Assembly: GCA_030647435.1 (NCBI GenBank)
Contig: JAUSJX010000022.1
Coordinates: 1 to 64,000, forward strand
DNA: 64,000 bases
Direction of reading: 5' to 3'
Source of the DNA: Candidatus Rokuibacteriota bacterium
Lineage (GTDB): Bacteria > Methylomirabilota > Methylomirabilia > Rokubacteriales > CSP1-6
Positions 30,157 to 41,401 of this stretch are shown piece by piece; the stretch's first letter is position 1, and the number at the start of each line of letters is the position of its first letter. The notes under the pieces are model-generated. The model searched no databases. It was not told the origin of the DNA and saw nothing but the letters and a program-made list of their open reading frames with translations. A program made the position numbers and the translations under genes.

Positions 30157-30206
30157 TTGACAGCGTCCCGCGACAGAGGGCATAGTCTGGTCCAACCACC
30201 GGACCA
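30157..30206 (+). promoter_or_regulatory. Promoter with FadR-type operator before the oxidoreductase genes
   Basis: TTGACA at 30157-30162 and CATAGT at 30181-30186 (18-bp spacer) form a plausible promoter. Immediately after the -10 element, TGGTCCAACCA at 30188-30198 matches the FadR-family consensus TNGTNNNACNA at every fixed position, and TGGTCC/GGACCA (30188-30193, 30201-30206) gives a longer inverted repeat over the start of transcription. A FadR-family regulator is encoded at 37748-38503 at the end of the same gene run. Confidence 0.6.
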
Positions 30207-30275
30207 ACACTTCGCCGGCACCGGGCGGCAGGCCCGGCCCAGATCGAGCTCCCAGATCGAGCCCTAGGAGGAGCG

Positions 30276-31484
30276 ATGGCGCACTTCACGTGTGAGGTTG
30301 TCTACCGCGGTATCTTCCAGAAGAACCTCGCCGCGCGGATCTGCCGCGGCATCGTTCTCTCGTCGCGCAAGGCCGGCCGGTGGGGCATCGCCTTCGGCCG
30401 CTACGGCGACAGCCCCCAGCGCAATGGCATTCCCGCCAAGGACTTCGCCATCGTCGCGGACACGCAGGAAGAGCTCGAGCAGAACATGGCGCGCTACGAG
30501 CCCAAGGAGGTCGACGTCACCATCTGTGTGGACGACACGCTGTCGAAAGGCGTCGAGTCGTGGGCGTGGTACGGGCTCCAGCCGATCAACCGCCTGACGG
30601 TGCCGAACGGCACCGTGTTGATGACCTCGCTTCAGAGCCCGGCCGACCTTCTCAAGGACATCCACAAGAAGGAGGCGCCCTACAATCTGGCGCTGATCCC
30701 CGCCAAGGCGTCCTTCTCCGGCCTGTGGGTCTACAAAGAGGACCATACGGAGGCGCGGATCCTGGGCGCGCTCGCCAAGCTCCAGCCGGGCTTCCTCTCG
30801 CTCGACGCCGTCTGCGCCGCGATCCAGGAGGCCGAGTGGGGCTCCGAGCTGAAGGCGGCTTCCGCCCGCAAGGCCCATGACCGGCTCGAGACGCGCCCGG
30901 TCAAGAGCACCGAGGGCAACCGGGAGACGCCGTTCTCCTTCGAGAAGCCCAAGTGGTGGGAGATGCGCGAGGGTGTCACGATCCCGGCCATCCCGGTCGG
31001 CAAGCCCATGGAGGACGGCAAGGGCTACGTCCCCGAGCGCAACCCCTACTTCAAGAAGTTCGCGACGCGCACCATGCGCCCGGTCATCGACTTCGACAAG
31101 TGCGTGAAGTGCACGCTCTGCTGGATCCAGTGCCCCGACTCCTGCTTCGACGTGACGCCCGAGGGTCTCTATGACGCCAACATGGAGTCCTGCTGCGGCT
31201 GCGGGGTCTGCGAGGCGGTCTGTCCCGCCAAGGAATGCGTCACCATGGTCAGCGAGGCGGCTTTCGAGGACAACGCCAGCCAGTGGGAGATGTGGCGCAA
31301 GGACAAGGGCGCGTACCAGACCTGGATGACCAACAAGATCCACTCGAAGGAGCACATCACGCGCTCACACGGCTTCCGCTTCCGCGGGCAATATGACCAG
31401 GAGATCAAGCAGGACCTGGACCAGGGCGGCATCGACATCACGGCGGGCATCCCGGGCGAGAACGCCGCGGGCAAGCAGCGCTGA
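30276..31484 (+). CDS. 2-oxoacid:ferredoxin oxidoreductase, fused gamma-delta subunit (oxalate oxidoreductase-like)
   Basis: 402 residues. Residues 1 to about 190 are the gamma domain of the pyruvate:ferredoxin oxidoreductase superfamily. After a linker, a delta domain holds two [4Fe-4S] clusters: FDKCVKCTLCWIQCPDSCF from about residue 272 and CCGCGVCEAVCPAKEC from about residue 307. A gamma-delta fusion with separate alpha and beta subunits is the architecture of oxalate oxidoreductase of Moorella, though other family members are also fused. An RBS AGGAGGAGCG precedes the ATG. The enzyme is cytoplasmic and passes electrons to ferredoxin. Confidence 0.87.
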   Translation: MAHFTCEVVYRGIFQKNLAARICRGIVLSSRKAGRWGIAFGRYGDSPQRNGIPAKDFAIVADTQEELEQNMARYEPKEVDVTICVDDTLSKGVESWAWYGLQPINRLTVPNGTVLMTSLQSPADLLKDIHKKEAPYNLALIPAKASFSGLWVYKEDHTEARILGALAKLQPGFLSLDAVCAAIQEAEWGSELKAASARKAHDRLETRPVKSTEGNRETPFSFEKPKWWEMREGVTIPAIPVGKPMEDGKGYVPERNPYFKKFATRTMRPVIDFDKCVKCTLCWIQCPDSCFDVTPEGLYDANMESCCGCGVCEAVCPAKECVTMVSEAAFEDNASQWEMWRKDKGAYQTWMTNKIHSKEHITRSHGFRFRGQYDQEIKQDLDQGGIDITAGIPGENAAGKQR

Positions 31485-31502
31485 GGCGGGGAGGACATCC
31501 CA

Positions 31503-32741
31503 ATGGCAGTGGAGACGAAGACACCAGCGGCGGGCAAGGCGGCGTCCGATGACCGCGAGATGCTCATCTCGGGCAGCGAAGCCTGTGCCGAGGCCCTGAC
31601 ACTGGCAGATCTCGACGTGGTGACGGCCTACCCGATCCGTCCCTATGACACCGTCATGCAGGCCATCGCGAAGAAGATCGCCAACGGCCAGCTTGTGGCC
31701 GAGTACATCGTGGCCGAGGGCGAGCACAGCCAGTTCGAAATAGTCAAGCACGCGTCGACCGTGGGCGCGCGCGTCTTCTGCGGCTCCTCGGGCGTGGGCT
31801 GGATGTACGCCATGGAGTGCCTGACGGTGACGCCGCCGCTTCGCGTCCCCATGGTCGCCATGGTCGGGAACCGGGCGCTCGACGACCCGGGCGCCTTCGG
31901 CGTCGAGCACAACGACGCGCTCTCGGTGCGCGACCTGGGCTGGATGCTGATCTGGGTCGACACGGCGCAGGAGATGCTCGACACGACGCTCCTCGCCTAC
32001 CGCATCGCCGAGGACCGGCGGGTCTTCCTGCCGTGCGCCATCTCGGCCGACGGCGCCTTTCTGACCCACTCGCAGACGATCGTGCAGGTGCCGACCAGGG
32101 CCAAGGTGGACAAGTTCCTGCCGCCCTACAACCGCGGCGACTTGCAGCTGCACCCGGACAACCCGATCACGGTTGCGCCCCAGGCCAACGAGGACTGGGT
32201 CATCGAGATCCGGCGCCAGAACAACGAGGCGATGAACCGCGCCTACACGGTGATCGAGGAGGCCTACGCGGATTTCCGCCGCATCTTCGGCCGCGGTCCC
32301 GAGAACCCGTGGTTCGAGGAGTACATGACCGAGGACGCCGACGTCATCCTGATGGGCATGGGCACGATCTCCCTGCCGTTCAAGGTGGGCATCCGCAACA
32401 TGCGGGCCAAGGGGATGAAGGTGGGTCTCATCCGGCCGCGCTGGTTCCGGCCCTTCCCGACAGAGAAGCTGGTCGCCGCGCTCCAGCCGGCCAAGGCCAT
32501 CGGCGTCATCGATCGCGACTACTCCTTCGGCTCGCCTTTCGGCTCGGGCGTGGTCGCCAACGAGATCCGGGCGGCGATGTACAACGCCGAGAAGCGGCCG
32601 CCGCTCCTGTCCTTCATCTGCGGCCTGGGCGGCCGCGAGGTGACGCTCGAAGACGTCTACAAGGTCACCGACCTCTGCTTCGAGGCGGCGAAGTCCGGCA
32701 AATCTCCCCTGAAGACGCAGTGGTTGGGCGTGAGAGAATAG
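31503..32741 (+). CDS. 2-oxoacid:ferredoxin oxidoreductase alpha subunit (oxalate oxidoreductase-like)
   Basis: A 412-residue alpha subunit, spanning the PP-like domain I (VAEGEHSQFEIVKHASTVGA holds the Glu that activates thiamine) and domain II (IGVIDRDYSFGSPFGSG). The N-terminal substrate loop reads TAYPIRPYDTV, with Arg46 where pyruvate enzymes have Thr in YPITPS. To my knowledge an arginine at this place is a hallmark of oxalate oxidoreductase, where extra positive charge accommodates the dianion. RBS GGGGAGGAC. Works with the flanking subunits. Confidence 0.85.
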   Translation: MAVETKTPAAGKAASDDREMLISGSEACAEALTLADLDVVTAYPIRPYDTVMQAIAKKIANGQLVAEYIVAEGEHSQFEIVKHASTVGARVFCGSSGVGWMYAMECLTVTPPLRVPMVAMVGNRALDDPGAFGVEHNDALSVRDLGWMLIWVDTAQEMLDTTLLAYRIAEDRRVFLPCAISADGAFLTHSQTIVQVPTRAKVDKFLPPYNRGDLQLHPDNPITVAPQANEDWVIEIRRQNNEAMNRAYTVIEEAYADFRRIFGRGPENPWFEEYMTEDADVILMGMGTISLPFKVGIRNMRAKGMKVGLIRPRWFRPFPTEKLVAALQPAKAIGVIDRDYSFGSPFGSGVVANEIRAAMYNAEKRPPLLSFICGLGGREVTLEDVYKVTDLCFEAAKSGKSPLKTQWLGVRE

Positions 32742-32749
32742 CGTACTGC

Positions 32750-32856
32750 GAGCTGCAGGACGTCGCGGGGCTGGGGCCCCGCCGTCCGAGGCGAGCGAAG
32801 AGGGAAGGCCGAGCTGCAGGACGTCGCGGGGCTGGGGCCCCGCCGTCCGAGGCGAG
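32750..32856. repeat. 46-bp direct repeat with GC-rich hairpins between alpha and beta genes
   Basis: A 46-bp segment beginning GAGCTGCAGGACGTCGCGGG occurs at 32750-32795 and again at 32811-32856, identical by eye and with a 61-bp period. Each copy includes the hairpin CGGGGC-TGGG-GCCCCG. The second copy ends about 10 bp before the RBS of the beta gene, so the mRNA between alpha and beta would fold into two identical stem-loops. Confidence 0.85.
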
Positions 32857-32876
32857 TGAATAAGGAGAGAGAGACC

Positions 32877-33884
32877 ATGACCGAAACGTTCACGAACGCG
32901 ACGCAGATCCTCGAGCCTTTCCGGGGGGTTAAGAAGGTTACCCTCGAAGAGTACTTTACGTCGGGCCACCGCACCTGCCAGGGGTGCGAGTCGGCGCTGG
33001 TGATGAAGCTCATGGTCAAGGCGGCGGGGCCGCGGACCATCGTCCTTGGCGCGACGGGTTGCATGTATGTCGCCAACACGACGTACTACACGACTCCGTG
33101 GGTGGTGCCGTGGATGCACACGCAGCTCGGTTCCTCGGGCTCGGCGGCGCTCGGCACGGCCGCAGGGCTCAAGGCGCTCATGAAGAAGGGCAAGATGAAG
33201 GCCGAGCCCATCAACGTCATCGCCTTCTGCGGCGACGGCGGCGGGGCGGACATGGGCCTGGGGGCGATCTCCGCGACCCTGACCCACAAGGAGTACAACT
33301 CGCTCATCCTGATGTACGACAACGAGTCCTACGCCAACACGGACATCCAGGCCTCGGGCTCTACGCCGTACGGCGCCAACACCACGTTCAGCCCGCCCGG
33401 CTCGGTCAAGCGGCTGATGCACACCCGATGGAAGAAGAACATGGCGGGTATGCTGGCGGCCGGCCACCCCGAGTGCCGCTACGTCGCCACGGTGGACGCC
33501 TCGTACGCCGTCGAGATGATGAACAAGGTCAGGAAGGCCCTCTCCATCGGCGGGCCGACCTTCATCCACTCCCTCGACCCGTGCCCGAAGGGCTGGGACT
33601 ACGACCCCATGCTCTCCCACGAGCTCGGCGAGCTGGCCGTCGAGACCGGCGTCTTCCCGCTCTACGAGGTCGAGGACGGCGTGGTCCGCCACTACGGCAA
33701 GTCCAAGGCCATCGCCGAGGGACGGCCGCGCAAGCCGGTGCGGGAATATCTCCTCAAGCAGGGCCGGTTCGCCCACTTCCTCGAGGAAGACATCGAGTAC
33801 TTCCAGGCCAAGGTGGACGAGATGTGGAACAAGTGGGAAATCCCGGGCGTGATCCCTTTCTGGAAGGAAGGCCGCCCGCGGTAG
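32877..33884 (+). CDS. 2-oxoacid:ferredoxin oxidoreductase beta subunit (oxalate oxidoreductase-like)
   Basis: A 335-residue thiamine-diphosphate-binding beta subunit. Cysteines for the proximal [4Fe-4S] cluster are seen at Cys34 and Cys37 (RTCQGCES), Cys62 (ATGCMYV) and in SLDPCPKGW, and the TPP/Mg motif is CGDGGGADMGLGAI...YDNESYANT. Start ATG 32877 is set by the RBS AAGGAGAG; an in-frame upstream start lies inside the 46-bp repeat. It ends 145 bp before the carboxylate-transporter genes. Confidence 0.88.
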   Translation: MTETFTNATQILEPFRGVKKVTLEEYFTSGHRTCQGCESALVMKLMVKAAGPRTIVLGATGCMYVANTTYYTTPWVVPWMHTQLGSSGSAALGTAAGLKALMKKGKMKAEPINVIAFCGDGGGADMGLGAISATLTHKEYNSLILMYDNESYANTDIQASGSTPYGANTTFSPPGSVKRLMHTRWKKNMAGMLAAGHPECRYVATVDASYAVEMMNKVRKALSIGGPTFIHSLDPCPKGWDYDPMLSHELGELAVETGVFPLYEVEDGVVRHYGKSKAIAEGRPRKPVREYLLKQGRFAHFLEEDIEYFQAKVDEMWNKWEIPGVIPFWKEGRPR

Positions 33885-34029
33885 TAGACTGTGTCGCACC
33901 GGGGGGCGGGCCGAGGCCCCGAGCCGCGGTTCGCCCCCACACCTCTCACCCGCCGTCCCGGCGCCACGCGCGCCTCGAACAGCCTTCGCCCCGTCCTCCA
34001 AACCGACCGCTTTGCGAGGAGGCTAGAAC

Positions 34030-35025
34030 ATGACACGTCAATGGCGACCGTTCACCGGCCTGGTTCTCGCATCTGTCCTTATTGCTGGAGCGCCCTGCGT
34101 CGCCCAAGCAGCCTGGGAGCCCACCAAGCCCATCGAGTTCGTCGTCCCCGCCGGGACAGGCGGCGGCGCGGACCAGATGGCCCGCCTCATCGCCGGCCTT
34201 GCCGAGAAGCACAAGCTCTCGCCCAGGCCGCTCATTGTGGTGAACAAGTCGGGCGGCGCCGGCGCCGAAGGATTCCTGCACGTCAAGGGCAAGAAGGGCG
34301 ATGCCCACACCATCATCATCACGCTCTCCAACCTCTTCACGACGCCGCTCCACACCGGCGTGCCGTTCAACTGGAAGGACTTGACGCCGATCACCCGCAT
34401 GGCCCTTGACGAATTCATCCTCTGGGTCAACGCCGAGACGCCGTACAAGACCGCCAAGGAGTATCTGGGCGCGGTCAAGGAGCGTTCGGGCGGCGACAAC
34501 CGCATGAAGATGGCCGGCACCGGCACGGCCCAGGAGGACCAGATCATCACCATCCAGATGGAGCAGGCGCTCGGGGTGAAGTTCACCTATGTGCCGTTCA
34601 AGGGCGGCGGCGAGGTGTGTGTCAACCTGGTCGGCAAGCACGTGGACTCCACGGTGAATAACCCCATCGAGTGCGCCAGCCACTGGAAGGCGGGACGGGT
34701 GCGTCCGCTGGCCGTGTTCGACGCCGCCCGCATTCCCATCGCCGAGTGGAAGGAGATCCCGACCGTCAAGGAGGCGCTCGGCGTGGACATTCAGTACCTG
34801 ATGCTCCGTGGCATCTTCGGCGCCCCCGACATGCCCAAGGACGCCGTGGAGTGGTATCAGGGCTTCCTCAAGAAGGTCTACGAGACCCCCGAGTTCAAGG
34901 ACTACCTCAACCAGGGCGCGCTCAAGCCCTCCTGGCTCACCGGTCCCGACTACGTGAAGTGGCTTGAGGCCGCCGAGGCGCAGCACAAGGACTTGATGGT
35001 CCAGGGCGGGCTGCTCAAGAAGTAG
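34030..35025 (+). CDS. tctC: Tripartite tricarboxylate transporter substrate-binding protein TctC
   Basis: A 331-residue periplasmic receptor of the Bug/TctC family with a Sec signal peptide (cleavage near VAQAA, residue 28). The mature start WEPTKPIEFVVPAGTGGGAD holds the carboxylate-binding Gly-rich loop, followed by NKSGGAGAEGF. Members bind citrate, dicarboxylates, aromatic acids and other carboxylates, so the ligand is open; an anionic substrate fits the neighbouring oxidoreductase. The 145 bp before it contain no clear promoter. Confidence 0.93.
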   Translation: MTRQWRPFTGLVLASVLIAGAPCVAQAAWEPTKPIEFVVPAGTGGGADQMARLIAGLAEKHKLSPRPLIVVNKSGGAGAEGFLHVKGKKGDAHTIIITLSNLFTTPLHTGVPFNWKDLTPITRMALDEFILWVNAETPYKTAKEYLGAVKERSGGDNRMKMAGTGTAQEDQIITIQMEQALGVKFTYVPFKGGGEVCVNLVGKHVDSTVNNPIECASHWKAGRVRPLAVFDAARIPIAEWKEIPTVKEALGVDIQYLMLRGIFGAPDMPKDAVEWYQGFLKKVYETPEFKDYLNQGALKPSWLTGPDYVKWLEAAEAQHKDLMVQGGLLKK

Positions 35026-35036
35026 CCCCCCTGCTC

Positions 35037-35498
35037 ATGCGCGCGGCCGACCTCACGACCGCTGCCCTGCTGATGGCGGTAGGAGCCCTGGTGGTCCGCG
35101 ACGCCCTCCGCCTCGGCGTCGGGTGGGGGACCGACGGACCCAAGAGCGGGTTCTTCCCCTTTTGGCTGGCCGTGGTCCTTCTCGCCTGCTGCCTCGGTAT
35201 CGTCGTGCAGGCCCTGAGGCGCGCCGACAGGGCACCCTTCGTGGCGCGCGGGGCACTCGGCCCGGTGCTCAAGGTGTTGTGGCCGGCCACTGCCGCGGTG
35301 CTGCTGATGCAGTTCGTCGGCCTCTACGTCGCCTCGGCGCTCTACATGGGCTTCTACATGCGCTGGATCGGGCGGAACTCGTGGCTGGCCGTGGTGGCGG
35401 TGAGCGTGGGCTTCTCGGTCTCCACGTTCCTCTTGTTCGAGACATGGTTTCTGGTCCCCATGCCCAAGGGGCCGCTCGAGACCTGGCTCGGCTACTAG
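35037..35498 (+). CDS. tctB: Tripartite tricarboxylate transporter small membrane subunit TctB
   Basis: A 153-residue protein with four predicted membrane segments, matching TctB in length and layout (SGFFPFWLAVVLLACCLG, then AAVLLMQFVGLYVASALYMG). Directly between tctC and tctA. Sequence conservation in this family is low, so the assignment leans on position and topology. Confidence 0.9.
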   Translation: MRAADLTTAALLMAVGALVVRDALRLGVGWGTDGPKSGFFPFWLAVVLLACCLGIVVQALRRADRAPFVARGALGPVLKVLWPATAAVLLMQFVGLYVASALYMGFYMRWIGRNSWLAVVAVSVGFSVSTFLLFETWFLVPMPKGPLETWLGY

Positions 35499-35501
35499 CC
35501 C

Positions 35502-37022
35502 ATGGGTTTCGAGAACCTGCTGCTGGGCTTCCAGGTCGCGCTCCAGCCGCACAACCTCCTCTTGGCCGTCATCGGCGTCGCGCTCGGCACCATCATCGGC
35601 GTGCTGCCGGGGCTCGGCGGCGCCAACGGCGTCGCCATCCTGCTGCCGCTGACCTTCTCCATGCCGCCGACCTCGGCCATCATCCTCTTGACGAGCATCT
35701 ACTGGGGGGCGCTCTTCGGCGGCGCCATCACGTCCATCCTCTTCAACATCCCGGGTGAGCCCTGGTCGGTGGCCACGACCTTCGACGGTTTCCCGATGGC
35801 CCGGCGGGGCGAGGGTGGGCCGGCGCTCACGGCCGCCTTCACTTCGTCCTTCGTCGGCGCGCTCTTCTCCGTGATCCTGATCACGCTCTTCGCGCCCATC
35901 CTGGCCGAGGTGGCCCTCAAGTTCGGCCCGCCCGAGTTCTTCGCCATCCAGCTCCTGACCTTCTCGTCGTTTATCGGCCTCGGCGGCGGCAGCCCGCTCA
36001 AGTCGCTCGTCTCGATCCTTATCGGCTTCATCCTGGCCTCGGTCGGGCTCGACATCGTCACGGGCGCGCTGCGACTGACCTTCGGCTTCACCGACCTCAT
36101 GAAGGGGTTCGACTTCATCGTGGCGGTGATCGGCCTCTTCGGCATCGGCGAGATCCTGCTGACCATGGAGGAGGGCCTCTCGTTCAAGGGCGCCTCGGCG
36201 AAGATGAGCCCCCGCGTCGTCTGGGACACGTGGCACATCCTGCCGCGCTACTGGCGGACGTTCCTGCGAAGCTGCTTCATCGGCTTCTGGATGGGCTTTA
36301 AACCGGGCGGGGCGACGCCCGCCTCGTTCATGAGCTACGCCTTCGCGAAGCGCTTCTCGCGGCACCCGGAGCGCTTCGGCAAGGGCGAGATCGAAGGCGT
36401 CGTGGCGCCGGAGACGGCCGCGCACGCGGCCGGCGGCGCCTCGCTCCTGCCCATGATCACGCTCGGCATCCCGGGCTCGCCGACGGCGGCGGTCATGCTG
36501 GGCGGGCTCATCATCTGGGGGCTCCAGCCAGGGCCCATGCTCTTCAAGGAGAAGCCGGAGTTCGTGTGGGGTCTCATCGCCAGCATGTACACGGGCAACG
36601 TCATCGGCGTCATCATGGTGCTGGCCTTCGTGCCGGCCTTCGCCGCCATCCTGCGCGTGCCCTTCGCCATCCTCACGCCGCTGATCATCTCCATCTGCGC
36701 TGTCGGGGCCTACTCGGTCAATGGCCGCATGCTCGACATCTGGTATATGCTCATCTTCGGCGTGATCGGCTATGCCTTCAAGAAGCTCGACTACCCTCTG
36801 GCGCCGCTGGTGCTGGCCCTCGTCCTGGGCGACCTGGCTGAGAACGCCTTGCGCCAGAGCCTCATCATATCGCAGGGCTCGCTCCTGATCTTCTTCGTGC
36901 GGCCGATCTCGGGGGCCATCACCGCTGTCGCGCTGTTCTTCTTCGCGCTGCCCGTCATCACGCCGTGGTGGCGCCGTCTCCGGGGCGTGTCGGTGCCGGA
37001 CGTATCGCCCCGGGAGACCTGA
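35502..37022 (+). CDS. tctA: Tripartite tricarboxylate transporter large membrane subunit TctA
   Basis: A 506-residue integral permease with about twelve membrane segments. GTIIGVLPGLGGANGVAILL is the first TctA signature motif and GIPGSPTAAVMLGGLIIWGL the second; FNIPGEP and the PEFFAIQLL motif are also present. It drives sodium- or proton-coupled uptake of a carboxylate delivered by TctC. The gene starts 3 bp after tctB. Confidence 0.96.
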   Translation: MGFENLLLGFQVALQPHNLLLAVIGVALGTIIGVLPGLGGANGVAILLPLTFSMPPTSAIILLTSIYWGALFGGAITSILFNIPGEPWSVATTFDGFPMARRGEGGPALTAAFTSSFVGALFSVILITLFAPILAEVALKFGPPEFFAIQLLTFSSFIGLGGGSPLKSLVSILIGFILASVGLDIVTGALRLTFGFTDLMKGFDFIVAVIGLFGIGEILLTMEEGLSFKGASAKMSPRVVWDTWHILPRYWRTFLRSCFIGFWMGFKPGGATPASFMSYAFAKRFSRHPERFGKGEIEGVVAPETAAHAAGGASLLPMITLGIPGSPTAAVMLGGLIIWGLQPGPMLFKEKPEFVWGLIASMYTGNVIGVIMVLAFVPAFAAILRVPFAILTPLIISICAVGAYSVNGRMLDIWYMLIFGVIGYAFKKLDYPLAPLVLALVLGDLAENALRQSLIISQGSLLIFFVRPISGAITAVALFFFALPVITPWWRRLRGVSVPDVSPRET

Positions 37023-37029
37023 TCGGCAC

Positions 37030-37746
37030 TTGGCTGTGACCGCCTCCGTCTCCGACCCATCGTTCTGGATCGGCGTCTCCAAGATCGTCCTCATCGACCT
37101 GGCATTGGCCGGGGACAATGCGCTGGTCATCGCGCTCGCCGTGCGTACGCTGCCCAGGCGCCAGCAGTTCGTGGGCCGGATCTGGGGAACGGTGGGGGCG
37201 GTGGCGCTCCGGCTCCTCTTCATCACGATCATCAGCTACCTGCTCAGCATCCCGCTCCTCCAGGTGGTGGGCGGCCTCCTGCTGATCTGGATCGCCATCA
37301 AGCTGGTGCGACAGAGCGAGGAGGCGGGCGACGGGAGCGCGAAGGCCGGCACCACGCTGCTCGAGGCCATCTGGATCATCATCGTGGCCGATGTGGTCAT
37401 GAGCCTCGACAACGTCATCGGGGTGGCAGGCGCTGCCGAGGGTGACCTCCGCCTCGTGATCTTCGGGATCGGGCTCTCGATCCCCATCGTCGTCTGGGGC
37501 AGCGGGGTGCTGGCCACCCTGATGAACCGCTACCCGTGGATCATCCTGATCGCCGGGGGCATCCTGGGCGAGGTGGCGGGCAAGATGATCCTCCACGACC
37601 ACTTCGTCGTGAGCCGGCTCGGTGAGGTTCCCGGTCTTGTCGAATGGGCGGTGCGGCTCGGCCTCGCGGGGGGCATCATGCTCATCGGCTGGATCACCAC
37701 CCGGCGGCGCGCTGCGGCGGCGCACGGCAAAGTCGCGGGAAGGTAG
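37030..37746 (+). CDS. TerC-family integral membrane protein (YjbE type)
   Basis: A 238-residue protein with seven predicted helices. LIDLALAGDNALVIALAVRT and VVADVVMSLDNVIGVAGAAE carry the two conserved acidic D-N motifs of TerC proteins, several of which export manganese during protein secretion. Start is TTG 37030 or GTG 37036, both close behind tctA. Its link with carboxylate uptake is unknown, but spacing indicates a shared transcript. Confidence 0.87.
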   Translation: MAVTASVSDPSFWIGVSKIVLIDLALAGDNALVIALAVRTLPRRQQFVGRIWGTVGAVALRLLFITIISYLLSIPLLQVVGGLLLIWIAIKLVRQSEEAGDGSAKAGTTLLEAIWIIIVADVVMSLDNVIGVAGAAEGDLRLVIFGIGLSIPIVVWGSGVLATLMNRYPWIILIAGGILGEVAGKMILHDHFVVSRLGEVPGLVEWAVRLGLAGGIMLIGWITTRRRAAAAHGKVAGR

Positions 37747-37747
37747 C

Positions 37748-38503
37748 GTGGACCTCGAGCCCGTCAAGTCCGTCCGGATCTACGAGGACATCGTCCGCCA
37801 GGTCAGGGCCTTGATCGCCGACGGCCGTCTCAAGTCCGGCGACAGGCTGCCGCCGGAGCGGGACCTGGCCGAGCGCTTCCGTGTCAGCCGCACCTCGGTG
37901 CGCGAGGCGCTGCGGTCGCTGCAGAGCCGCGGCTTGATCGACATCAGGGCGGGGGAAGGCGCCTTCGTCCGTGACGTCTCGGTCGAGGCCCTCATCGAGC
38001 CCCTGGCGCTTGTCATCCTGCCTTACCGCGAGGCGGTGGCAGAGCTCTTCGAGGCGCGCCGCCTCCTCGAGCCCGCGATCGCGGCTCTAGCGGCGCGGCG
38101 CGCGACCCGGGACGAGCTCGCCGAGATGGAGCGCATCCTCGCCGAGCAGGCGCGCGAGGTCGCGCGCGGGCGTACAGGCATGGCCCAGGACTCGGCGCTC
38201 CACGCGGCCATTGCCGCCGCCGCCCACAACCGGGCGATCGTTCGCATCGTCAACGCGCTCGTGGATCTCCTCGCGCAGAGCCGGGAGGAGAGCCTGCACA
38301 CTCCCGGCCGGCCGAGACGCTCCCACCAGGACCACAGGCGGATCCTCGGCGCTATCCGCCGCCGCGACGAGGCCGGGGCGCGGCGGGCGATGCTCGACCA
38401 TCTGACGGCGGTGGCGAAGCTCGTCGAGGGCTTGCCGGGCGGGCGCCGACCCGACCGCCGGGCTTCCAAGGCGAAACCACGGCAGAGAGAGAGACCCCGC
38501 TAG
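37748..38503 (+). CDS. FadR-family (GntR, FCD domain) transcriptional regulator
   Basis: 251 residues: a winged helix near the N-terminus (LKSGDRLPPERDLAERFRVS, then RTSVREALRSLQSRGLI) and an all-helical FCD domain that in this family binds a metal and a carboxylate effector; HAAIAAAAHN and HQDHRRILGAI supply metal-ligand histidines. The GTG start follows the TerC stop by 1 bp. It likely controls this gene run: a matching FadR box overlaps the promoter at 30157-30206. Confidence 0.88.
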   Translation: MDLEPVKSVRIYEDIVRQVRALIADGRLKSGDRLPPERDLAERFRVSRTSVREALRSLQSRGLIDIRAGEGAFVRDVSVEALIEPLALVILPYREAVAELFEARRLLEPAIAALAARRATRDELAEMERILAEQAREVARGRTGMAQDSALHAAIAAAAHNRAIVRIVNALVDLLAQSREESLHTPGRPRRSHQDHRRILGAIRRRDEAGARRAMLDHLTAVAKLVEGLPGGRRPDRRASKAKPRQRERPR

Positions 38504-38567: not shown

Positions 38568-38578
38568 TCTTGGATAAC

Positions 38579-38632
38579 GCAGGCCTCTTCTGGGCCTGCC
38601 TTTGTTTCTCTGCAGCCATTGTTTCTCTGCAG
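38579..38632 (+). promoter_or_regulatory. Hairpin with T-rich tail and 14-bp duplication in the ppdK leader
   Basis: GCAGGCC/GGCCTGC (38579-38585, 38593-38599) form a hairpin followed by CTTTGTTTCT, a terminator-like arrangement. It could end the FadR-type transcript or attenuate ppdK, because the predicted promoter lies upstream of it. Directly after it TTGTTTCTCTGCAG occurs twice (38602-38615, 38619-38632). Confidence 0.5.
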
Positions 38633-38662
38633 AATGTCCGGCCCGACCGAGGGGGTCTCTGT

Positions 38663-41401
38663 ATGGCGCGCGCCACGTCACGCCGGAGAGCACGGACAAA
38701 GGCCCCGAGCCCTGCCGCTCGCCGGCCCAAGTACGTGTACTCCTTCGCCAACGGCAAGGCGGACGGCTCGAGCGCCCTCCGCCACCTCTTGGGCGGAAAG
38801 GGGTGCGAGCTGGCGGAGATGACCAACCTGGGGGTGTCGGTGCCTCCCGGCTTCACGATCACGACGGAAGCCTGGGCCGCGTACAGCTCCGGGAGCCGCA
38901 AGCATCCGGCGGGGCTCTGGGAGCAGGTCGAGGGCGGGATGGCGCGCCTCGAGGCCGCGGTCGAGCTTCGGCTCGGGGACCCGGCCAAGCCGCTCCTCGT
39001 GTCGGTGCGCTCGGGCGCGCGCGCGTCGATGCCCGGCATGATGGATACCGTCCTGAACCTCGGGCTCAATGACCGGACGGTGATCGGCCTCGCGCGCTGG
39101 ACCAAGAACGAGCGCTTCGCGTGGGACTGCTACCGGAGGTTCATCACCATCTTCGGCGACGTCGTGCTCGGCATCGAGCGCCGCGCCTTCGATGAGCTGC
39201 TCGACCGCGCGAAGGCCGTCGCGCGCGCGAAGAGCGACGCGGATCTCCAGCCCGAGCCCCTCAAGGCCCTCGTGGCCGAGTTCAAAAGCCTCGTCCAGGC
39301 GCGTACGGGCAAGCCCTTCCCTCAGGATCCGCCCGAGCAGCTCAAGCTTGCGGTCAACGCCGTCTTCGACTCGTGGTTCGCGAAGAAGGCCGTGGACTAC
39401 CGGCGCATCCACCGGCTGCCGGACGACTGGGGCACCGCGGTCACGGTGATGGCCATGGTCTTCGGCAACCTCGGGGAGAGCTCCGGCACGGGCGTCTGCT
39501 TCACGCGCGACCCGTCGAGCGGGGAGCGCCGCTTCTTCGGCGAGTTCCTCATCAACGCCCAGGGCGAGGACGTCGTCGCGGGCATCCGCACCCCGCAGCC
39601 CATCGCCGCCCTCAAGGAGAGCATGCCGGCGGTCTACGACGAGCTCGTGACCATCAAGGACCGCCTCGAGCGCCACTACCGCGACATGCAGGACATCGAG
39701 TTCACCGTCCAGGAAGGGCGGCTCTTCATCCTCCAGACGCGTTCCGGCAAGCGCACCGCGGGCGCGGCCGTGCGCATCGCCGTCGAGATGGTGCGGGAGC
39801 GCCTGATCGACCGGGACACGGCCCTGCTGCGCGTCGAGCCGGCCTCGCTCAACCAGCTCCTGGTCAAGACGGTCGACCCGAAGGCCACGTACACGGCCAT
39901 CGCTCGTGGACTGGCCGCCACGCCCGCGGCGGCGGTGGGCAAGGTCGTGTTCGACCCCGAGAAGGCTGTCGAGATGGCGCTCCGCGAGGAGCACGTCATC
40001 CTGGTCCGGCAGGAGACCTCGCCGGAGGACGTGGCGGGGATGCACGCGGCTCAGGGGGTCCTGACCTCCCGGGGCGGCCTGACTTCTCACGCGGCCGTCG
40101 TGGCCCGCGGCTGGGGCAAGAGCTGCGTGGTGGGCGCGGGCGATGTGATTGTGGACGAGGAGAACCGGCTCTTCCGTGCCGGCCGAGCGGTGGTGCGCGA
40201 AGGGCAGGTCGTCACGCTGAACGGCGCCACGGGCGAAGTGGTCATGGGAGCCCTGCCGCTCGTGGACCCGAAGCTCTCGGCGGAGTTCCGGCAGCTCCTG
40301 GCCTGGGCCCGGAAGGCGAGCACGACACGGGTGCGTGCCAACGCCGATACGCCGAACGATGCCGCCAAGGCGCGGGAGGAGTTCGAGGCGGAAGGCATCG
40401 GTCTCGTCCGCACCGAGCACATGTTCTTCAAGGACGACCGCATCCCGATCGTCCGCGAGATGATCATGGCCCCCGACGAGCAGGCCCGGCGCAAGGCCGT
40501 CGACAGACTCCTCCCATTCCAGCGTGAAGACTTCATCGGGATCTTCACGGCGATGGATGGCTACCCGGTGACGATCCGGCTGCTGGATCCGCCGCTCCAC
40601 GAGTTCCTGCCCAAGTACAAGGAAGTGCTCGAGGAGTACACGCGGCTCGACGCGCTCGGCATCAACCCGGCGCGCCGCGACGGGCTGGGCGCGGTCAAGG
40701 CGCGGATCGAGGCCCTCCAGGAAGCCAACCCCATGCTCGGCCACCGCGGCTGCCGGCTCGGCATCACCTTTCCCGAGATCTACGAGATGCAGGTGCGGGC
40801 GATCATGGAGGCGGCGTGCGAGGTGGCGAGGCGGGGCGTGCGGGTGGAGCCCGAGATCATGATCCCCCTCACGGGCACCGTCCCCGAGATGAAGGTCACG
40901 CGCGACATGACCGTGCGCATGGCCGACAAGACCGTGGCCGAGATGGGCGCGAAGGTCGCCTACACCGTCGGCACGATGATCGAAGTGCCGCGCGCCGCCC
41001 TGATCGCCGACAAGCTCGCCGAGCACGCGGACTTCTTCTCGTTCGGCACCAACGACCTGACGCAGATGACATTCGGTTACAGCCGGGACGACATCGGCAA
41101 GTTCCTGCCTTTCTATCTCGAGAAGAAACTGCTCCCGGATGATCCCTTCGCGGTGCTCGACCAGGAAGGTGTCGGGGAGATGATCGAGATCGGGATCCGG
41201 CGAGGCCGCAAGACGAAGCCCAAGCTCAAGGTGGGCATTTGTGGCGAACACGGTGGCGAGCCGTCTTCGGTCGAGTTCTGTCATCGCGTGGGCATGGACT
41301 ACGTCTCCTGCTCTCCGTACATGGTGCCGATCGCGTGGCTCGCGTCGGCCCAGGCGCGGATCAAGGAGAAGGCCTCGAAGGCCCGGAGGGCGGCGCGGTG
41401 A
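38663..41401 (+). CDS. ppdK: Pyruvate, phosphate dikinase
   Basis: A 912-residue three-domain enzyme interconverting pyruvate + ATP + phosphate with PEP + AMP + PPi. Domains in order: N-terminal ATP-grasp nucleotide domain ([20 protein letters not shown]), central swivelling domain with the phosphohistidine near residue 476 ([20 protein letters not shown]), and C-terminal PEP/pyruvate barrel ([20 protein letters not shown], catalytic Cys in GICGEHGG). ATG 38663 is chosen because GAGGGGG lies 8 bp before it; a TTG at 38570 would extend it by 31 residues through the leader repeats. Confidence 0.96.

Follow-up and report, generated by a model that had tools for sequence, protein, structure and literature searches.

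Oxalate, an acid of plants and fungi, is abundant in soil, and oxalate oxidoreductase (OOR) is known from few anaerobes. To our knowledge, no oxalate carrier has been described in the tripartite tricarboxylate transporter (TTT) family. In OOR, oxalate is bound by Arg31 of a YPIRP motif, which replaces a threonine, and Arg31 and Asp116 together drive a bait-and-switch mechanism (PMC5020499, from which the residue roles used below were taken). The ligands known for TTTs are mostly larger di- and tricarboxylates, the systems are diverse, and a major review of the family never mentions oxalate in its text (PMC5812351). In the oxalate:formate antiporter OxlT, residues Q34, Y35, N268, R272, W324 and K355 are important for binding or transporting oxalate (PMC10070484). 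Here we describe a gene run in a window of 64,000 nucleotides, the whole stretch of DNA analyzed, from contig 22 of a 5.8-Mb genome (98% complete) that has Candidatus Rokubacteria as its closest named relatives. Based on open reading frames (ORFs) and family searches, one strand encodes, in this order, an OOR-like fused gamma-delta subunit, alpha and beta subunits, TctC, TctB, TctA, a TerC/YjbE protein and a FadR/GntR regulator; a preliminary description of this DNA had the gene list, strand, order and coordinates right. We consider it likely that this operon is a module for high-affinity uptake and ferredoxin-dependent oxidation, with oxalate as the shared substrate. The proposal draws on computed gene content and order, kinship to OOR, active-site residues, a conserved operator, the link to TctCBA and the replacement of TctCBA by OxlT-type antiporters.

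The three-subunit enzyme with a fused gamma-delta subunit, proposed earlier, was borne out by ORFs, structure matches and alignment, and the top NCBI families of all three subunits were OOR models. The alpha subunit scored 323 bits to Moorella OOR (5c4i_A) versus 212 bits to the next match, a Methanosarcina pyruvate enzyme (9bt4_B), and the beta subunit 302 bits (5c4i_C) versus 208 bits (9bt4_C). For the ferredoxin (delta) part of gamma-delta the best structure match was OOR chain 5c4i_B, and the eight best Protein Data Bank (PDB) matches of a gamma-delta model of low-to-moderate confidence (mean pLDDT 71) were all Moorella OOR chains. In a maximum-likelihood tree of 97 alpha proteins, 73 window-like sequences were sister to 11 canonical OORs, including the crystallized Moorella OOR, with support of 100/100 on each side and the pyruvate-type enzymes outside. 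A beta tree built by a quick method gave the same three groups. The subunit phylogeny suggested as a check in the preliminary description places alpha and beta with OOR, away from the enzymes for pyruvate, 2-oxoglutarate or other 2-oxoacids. The alpha gene was present in 41 of the 57 family genomes.

In the window alpha subunit, Arg46 of the YPIRP motif, Arg124 and Asp127 correspond to OOR Arg31, Arg109 and Asp112, respectively, and these three residues are kept in all canonical and window-clade alphas with filled alignment columns; one canonical OOR alpha reads FPIRP. Outgroup alphas have YPITP, FPITP or YPISP at this position. The switch loop reads RxLDPPGDFG in canonical OORs versus RALDDPGAFG in the window clade, with Asp128 of the window protein at OOR Pro113 and Ala131 at OOR Asp116. 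Across the aligned sequences, the loss of Asp at 116 and the presence of Asp three residues earlier is a fixed difference between the two clades. In the alignment, window-type gamma-delta subunits also have a conserved C-terminal stretch past the second cluster motif, which canonical OORs lack; we can only guess that it shields a cluster from oxygen. The enzyme is, on its sequence, filed as an OOR-like sister clade and not as a full OOR member, since it lacks the switch aspartate and scores under the curated cut-offs. The earlier assignment to an oxalate-type enzyme stands as far as OOR kinship and YPIRP are concerned, but the rearranged switch loop and scores under the cut-offs separate it from a standard OOR.

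TctA, TctB and TctC are all present, each over its Pfam cut-off, and the TctC model (pLDDT 88) matched TTT binding proteins far above all else. Among Rokubacterial loci with enough sequence, TctC came next after beta in 28 of 29, the remaining one having an OxlT-family antiporter. TctC also followed the beta gene of a canonical OOR in five genomes of the same class (L115-L118, L120). These canonical-OOR-linked TctCs were 63–76% identical to the window TctC, and three canonical OOR alphas beside TctCBA, those tested, scored 561–620 against the OORalpha equivalog cut-off of 500. In the TctA tree all OOR-linked proteins (Rokubacterial, canonical-linked, Nitrospinota and G070) formed one clade with 99/100 support; unlinked paralogs, including a second TctA of the host, lay outside it, and two unlinked rows inside. 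Seven TctC positions (W29, T98, L99, F129, Q168, G192 and N210, window numbering) did not vary among 44 linked proteins, and the same residues were rare in 12 unlinked ones. In the ligand pocket of TphC, which binds terephthalate, P86 and G178 are the counterparts of L99 and G192, and N197 is aligned with a residue next to N210; this matching is approximate because the pairwise alignment has about 20% identity. Co-occurrence of transporter and oxidoreductase genes, which the preliminary description had put forward as a check, holds in nearly all relatives and extends to canonical OORs. The neighboring genes suggest oxalate as the TctC ligand. Separately, at L194 (2300-3280) a signature-bearing TctC belongs to a TctCBA away from OOR; the window-type OOR of that genome (G093) lies on a different contig.

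At six non-Rokubacterial loci (L064, L066, L067, L068, L072 and L114; Acidobacteria and one Deltaproteobacterial locus) the gene directly after beta encodes an antiporter of the OFA family, and the three of these six proteins scored on TIGR04259 reached 450–515 bits (cut-off 335). The Rokubacterial metagenome-assembled genome AR_45 has an OxlT-type gene in the TctCBA slot, and its close relative AR5 has TctCBA; their DNA is 91% identical until just past the end of beta. A chimeric assembly behind this swap was rejected, the flank being collinear with AR5 to the beta end and the GC content unchanged; the contig ends within the OFA gene. The six OxlT residues named above were kept in 10/10 OFA proteins compared, three of which (L139, L143, L144) do not adjoin an OOR gene, and Q34, W324 and K355 are missing from a lactate transporter of that superfamily. 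In the window genome, no OxlT-type/OFA protein scored over the threshold used.

A TGGTNNNACCA-type operator is known for the FadR/GntR-FCD family, and the window regulator has the GntR helix-turn-helix and FCD domains. A predicted operator of this type was found at the target promoter: the near-palindromic TGGTCCAACCA-CCG-GACCA lies immediately 3' of the -10 element, in agreement with the FadR-family box expected earlier at the first promoter. Searched across the 5.8-Mb genome, the 19-base pattern matched exactly at this site only. TGGTN3ACCA occurred at the promoter ahead of gamma-delta in 24/30 Rokubacterial loci (0.1 expected from shuffles), with TTGAC upstream of the operator in 24/24 operator-bearing loci, and the consensus in relatives, TGGTCWGACCAnnnGACCA, includes a third half-site. 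In other groups the regulator gene lies upstream of gamma-delta, its product is 40–54% identical, and the operator precedes the regulator gene in 11 of 27 loci (0.07 expected from shuffles). As judged from these sequences, regulator and operator stayed with the enzyme genes despite the changed gene order.

From this evidence we infer the TctC ligand, the reaction, the regulator effector, the electron acceptor and the use in energy metabolism. TctC would capture oxalate in the periplasm, and TctAB would carry it inward with an ion gradient as driver. Oxalate would then be bound at the thiamine pyrophosphate of the alpha-beta-gammadelta enzyme, the dianion held by Arg46 and Arg124, and split to two CO2 without CoA, the two low-potential electrons passing through three [4Fe-4S] clusters to ferredoxin. 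A FadR-type repressor would sit on TGGTCNGACCA, beside the promoter of the operon containing its own gene, and be released in the presence of the substrate or of a closely related metabolite. If all carbon handled by OOR becomes CO2, oxalate would be mainly an electron source unless CO2 is fixed otherwise. The host encodes heme-copper oxidases and therefore probably respires oxygen; oxalate would be an auxiliary energy source for an aerobically respiring soil bacterium. Among other oxalate routes, a bicupin oxalate decarboxylase was not found in the host genome, and the best scores there for the type II pathway equivalogs Oxc and Frc were 383 versus 739 bits and 425 versus 504 bits, respectively. 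A distant Oxc/Frc-like pair of adjacent genes lies in the host genome at L201 4315-7169 (G000 contig 76), and similar thiamine enzymes occur in many Rokubacteria.

Several points weigh against this proposal. The NCBIfam equivalog cut-offs NF045790/791/792 were missed (79/230, 368/500 and 350/590 bits), and no biochemical work on the window clade is known to us. Every window-clade alpha with a filled column has Ala in place of Asp116 and Asp at 113, so the catalytic cycle or the substrate range may differ. RuBisCO was not found in the host, which leaves carbon assimilation from oxalate alone without an evident route, and a host CoA-transferase adjoins a thiamine enzyme, distantly like frc/oxc and both under cut-off; this pair could be another route or something else. 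Outside Rokubacteria, a gene of the lactate/glycolate-permease family occurs in Firmicute and Nitrospinota/Tectomicrobia loci, and no adjacent carboxylate transporter was recognized in several SAR202-type loci. Most OFA proteins are, moreover, functionally untested (PMC10070484). The changed switch loop (Asp116 to Ala, Pro113 to Asp) also speaks for an enzyme acting on glyoxylate, mesoxalate, oxamate or a C3-C4 2-oxo-diacid that TctCBA imports, with oxalate the substrate of the sister clade only. The larger size of most known TTT ligands (PMC5812351) would fit such an acid, as would the flavin mononucleotide (FMN)-dependent 2-hydroxyacid dehydrogenase-family gene and CoA-transferase beside the SAR202-type OORs. 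However, canonical OORs, too, are served by this TctCBA lineage, some members of the window clade have OxlT-type antiporters with the oxalate-binding residues in its place, and the oxalate-binding arginine is kept throughout the clade, so that we regard a different substrate as unlikely.

A true oxalate oxidoreductase could, alternatively, stand beside a TctCBA that imports a different, merely co-regulated carboxylate, given that co-location is no proof of a shared substrate, that TTT systems are diverse (PMC5812351) and that the TctC ligand is deduced from its neighbors. This appears quite improbable, since the genes stay adjacent in both OOR clades and in several groups, the linked TctAs form one clade, the TctC pocket signature is fixed and a dedicated oxalate-type antiporter occupies the same slot. 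We give hardly any weight to a misassignment in which the window clade would in fact consist of pyruvate- or other CoA-dependent 2-oxoacid:ferredoxin oxidoreductases. The superfamily is the same and the pyruvate-synthase alpha model reached 332 bits, but both trees, YPIRP in place of YPITP and scores that for every subunit favor OOR over pyruvate models or structures oppose it; a PFOR, VOR or KOR identity was ruled out by trees and motif. The oxalate uptake and oxidation module remains the reading that we prefer.

More tentatively, and with rather more doubt than conviction, we suggest a second class of OOR, oxygen-tolerant and marked by the relocated switch Asp and the gamma-delta extension, in respiring bacteria of many groups (Rokubacteria, Acidobacteria, SAR202-type Chloroflexota, Nitrospinota, Tectomicrobia and others). 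Rokubacteria would possess a dedicated, oxalate-specific TTT importer, and soil and dark-ocean oxalate would be a source of electrons at the level of ferredoxin. No report of a TTT tied to oxalate oxidation, or of OOR in Rokubacteria, was found in open-access full texts; within that literature the pairing is, as first suggested, apparently undescribed, and its novelty is provisional because subscription literature lay outside the search. A recent survey looked for oxalotrophy by means of oxdC, oxc, frc and oxlT alone and would therefore miss organisms that have only an OOR-TctCBA system (PMC10192776). The inference of oxalate use in Tectomicrobia, made in a passage of a paper on that group that does not name OOR, agrees with the window-type OOR in Tectomicrobia record L084. 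The recurring pairing in related genomes suggests a new route of oxalate breakdown. If the proposal is true, oxalate metabolism is predicted for several groups besides an entire uncultured lineage, OOR is no longer limited to a few anaerobes and the TTT family gains an oxalate carrier.

The other features of the locus are listed in Table 1. PdxT lies 5' of the gene run, and pyruvate phosphate dikinase (PPDK) is the 3' neighbor, the latter conserved beside the module in Rokubacteria. TerC, included in the run by the preliminary description, is present in the window and recurs beside OOR-linked TctA, even with canonical OOR, but it is not universal in relatives. A TerC-family gene lies within a few kilobases of OOR-linked TctA at L118 2738-3307, L120 1646-2317, L190 4505-5149, L193 733-1410 and L189 414-1070. 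TerC as an obligatory part was rejected, as it was not found in several Rokubacterial loci at the sensitivity of a single query sequence. Import of a metal-oxalate with export of the metal by TerC is a guess. The gap between alpha and beta holds two direct copies, of about 45 bases each, of a GC-rich hairpin (fold z = -2.2), which may act in processing or in setting stoichiometry; hairpins between beta and TctC were dismissed as a special element, folding no better than shuffles (z = -0.4).

In Firmicutes and in Nitrospinota/Tectomicrobia, genes of the lactate/glycolate permease (LctP) family lie near OOR (L108 4068-5666, L111 12226-13884, L112 12287-13918, L084 13324-14979 and L086 16781-18397), and this permease is a candidate third oxalate carrier. 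In Nitrospinota/Tectomicrobia loci, a gene of the FGE (sulfatase-modifying-factor) family directly follows the OOR beta gene (L086 12294-13181, L084 12301-13209 and others) and precedes convergent TctABC or an LctP-family permease. In SAR202-type Chloroflexota (L076-L083, L092, L096), the window-type OOR lies beside an FMN-dependent 2-hydroxyacid dehydrogenase-family gene, together with a tandem CoA-transferase, Frc-like but under cut-off, and an acetolactate-synthase-like thiamine enzyme. An oxalyl-CoA decarboxylase identity of the latter was not supported; its best models were sulfoacetaldehyde acetyltransferase/acetolactate synthase, under cut-off.

Table 1 Features of the predicted oxalate module and its 3' neighbor in the window.
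Feature	Position	Strand	Evidence
Sigma-70-type promoter: TTGACA (30157-30162), 18-bp spacer, CATAGT (30181-30186)	30157-30186	+	Sequence
Predicted FadR-type operator, TGGTCCAACCA-CCG-GACCA	30188-30206		Pattern search, relatives
OOR-like fused gamma-delta subunit, two [4Fe-4S] motifs	30276-31484	+	Profile, structure match, alignment, model
OOR-like alpha subunit	31503-32741	+	Profile, structure match, alignment, tree
Alpha-beta intergenic stretch with two hairpin copies	32742-32876	+	Folding
OOR-like beta subunit (thiamine pyrophosphate, four cluster cysteines), probable start ATG about 32877	32856-33884	+	Profile, structure match, tree
TctC solute-binding protein	34030-35025	+	Family search, pocket signature, model
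TctB small membrane subunit	35037-35498	+	PF07331
TctA large membrane subunit, in OOR-linked TctA clade	35502-37022	+	PF01970 (511 bits), tree
TerC/YjbE-family membrane protein, putative metal transport	37030-37746	+	TIGR03717 (215.7 bits, cut-off 134.8)
FadR/GntR-FCD regulator, probable GTG start 37748, just past TerC stop	about 37748-38503	+	PF00392, PF07729
PPDK, candidate operon member	38570-41401	+	Family search, neighborhood

Compared with known systems, the closest solved relative of all three window subunits is the Moorella thermoacetica OOR (PDB 5c4i, 5exd, 5exe), which has the alpha-beta-fused gammadelta make-up, the equivalents of YPIRP Arg31, Arg109 and Asp112, and the cluster cysteines in common with the window enzyme. 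The latter differs in its sister-clade position, in Ala for Asp116 with Asp at position 113, in the extra C-terminal stretch of gamma-delta and in a host that probably respires oxygen. As in known TTTs (TctCBA; BctCBA, TpiBA/TphC, MatC, AdpC), a complete TctC-B-A set lies in one operon, but the window TctCBA belongs to a separate clade linked to OOR, in which TctC has a pocket signature of its own. OxlT (OFA, TIGR04259) takes the same genomic slot in the six non-Rokubacterial loci and one Rokubacterial relative, whereas TctCBA is an unrelated, binding-protein-dependent carrier. The regulator resembles LldR, PdhR, GlcC and NanR, FadR/GntR-FCD proteins of carboxylate operons, in domain make-up and in its TGGTNNNACCA-type predicted operator, and is set apart from them in that its orthologues accompany OOR genes in several bacterial groups.

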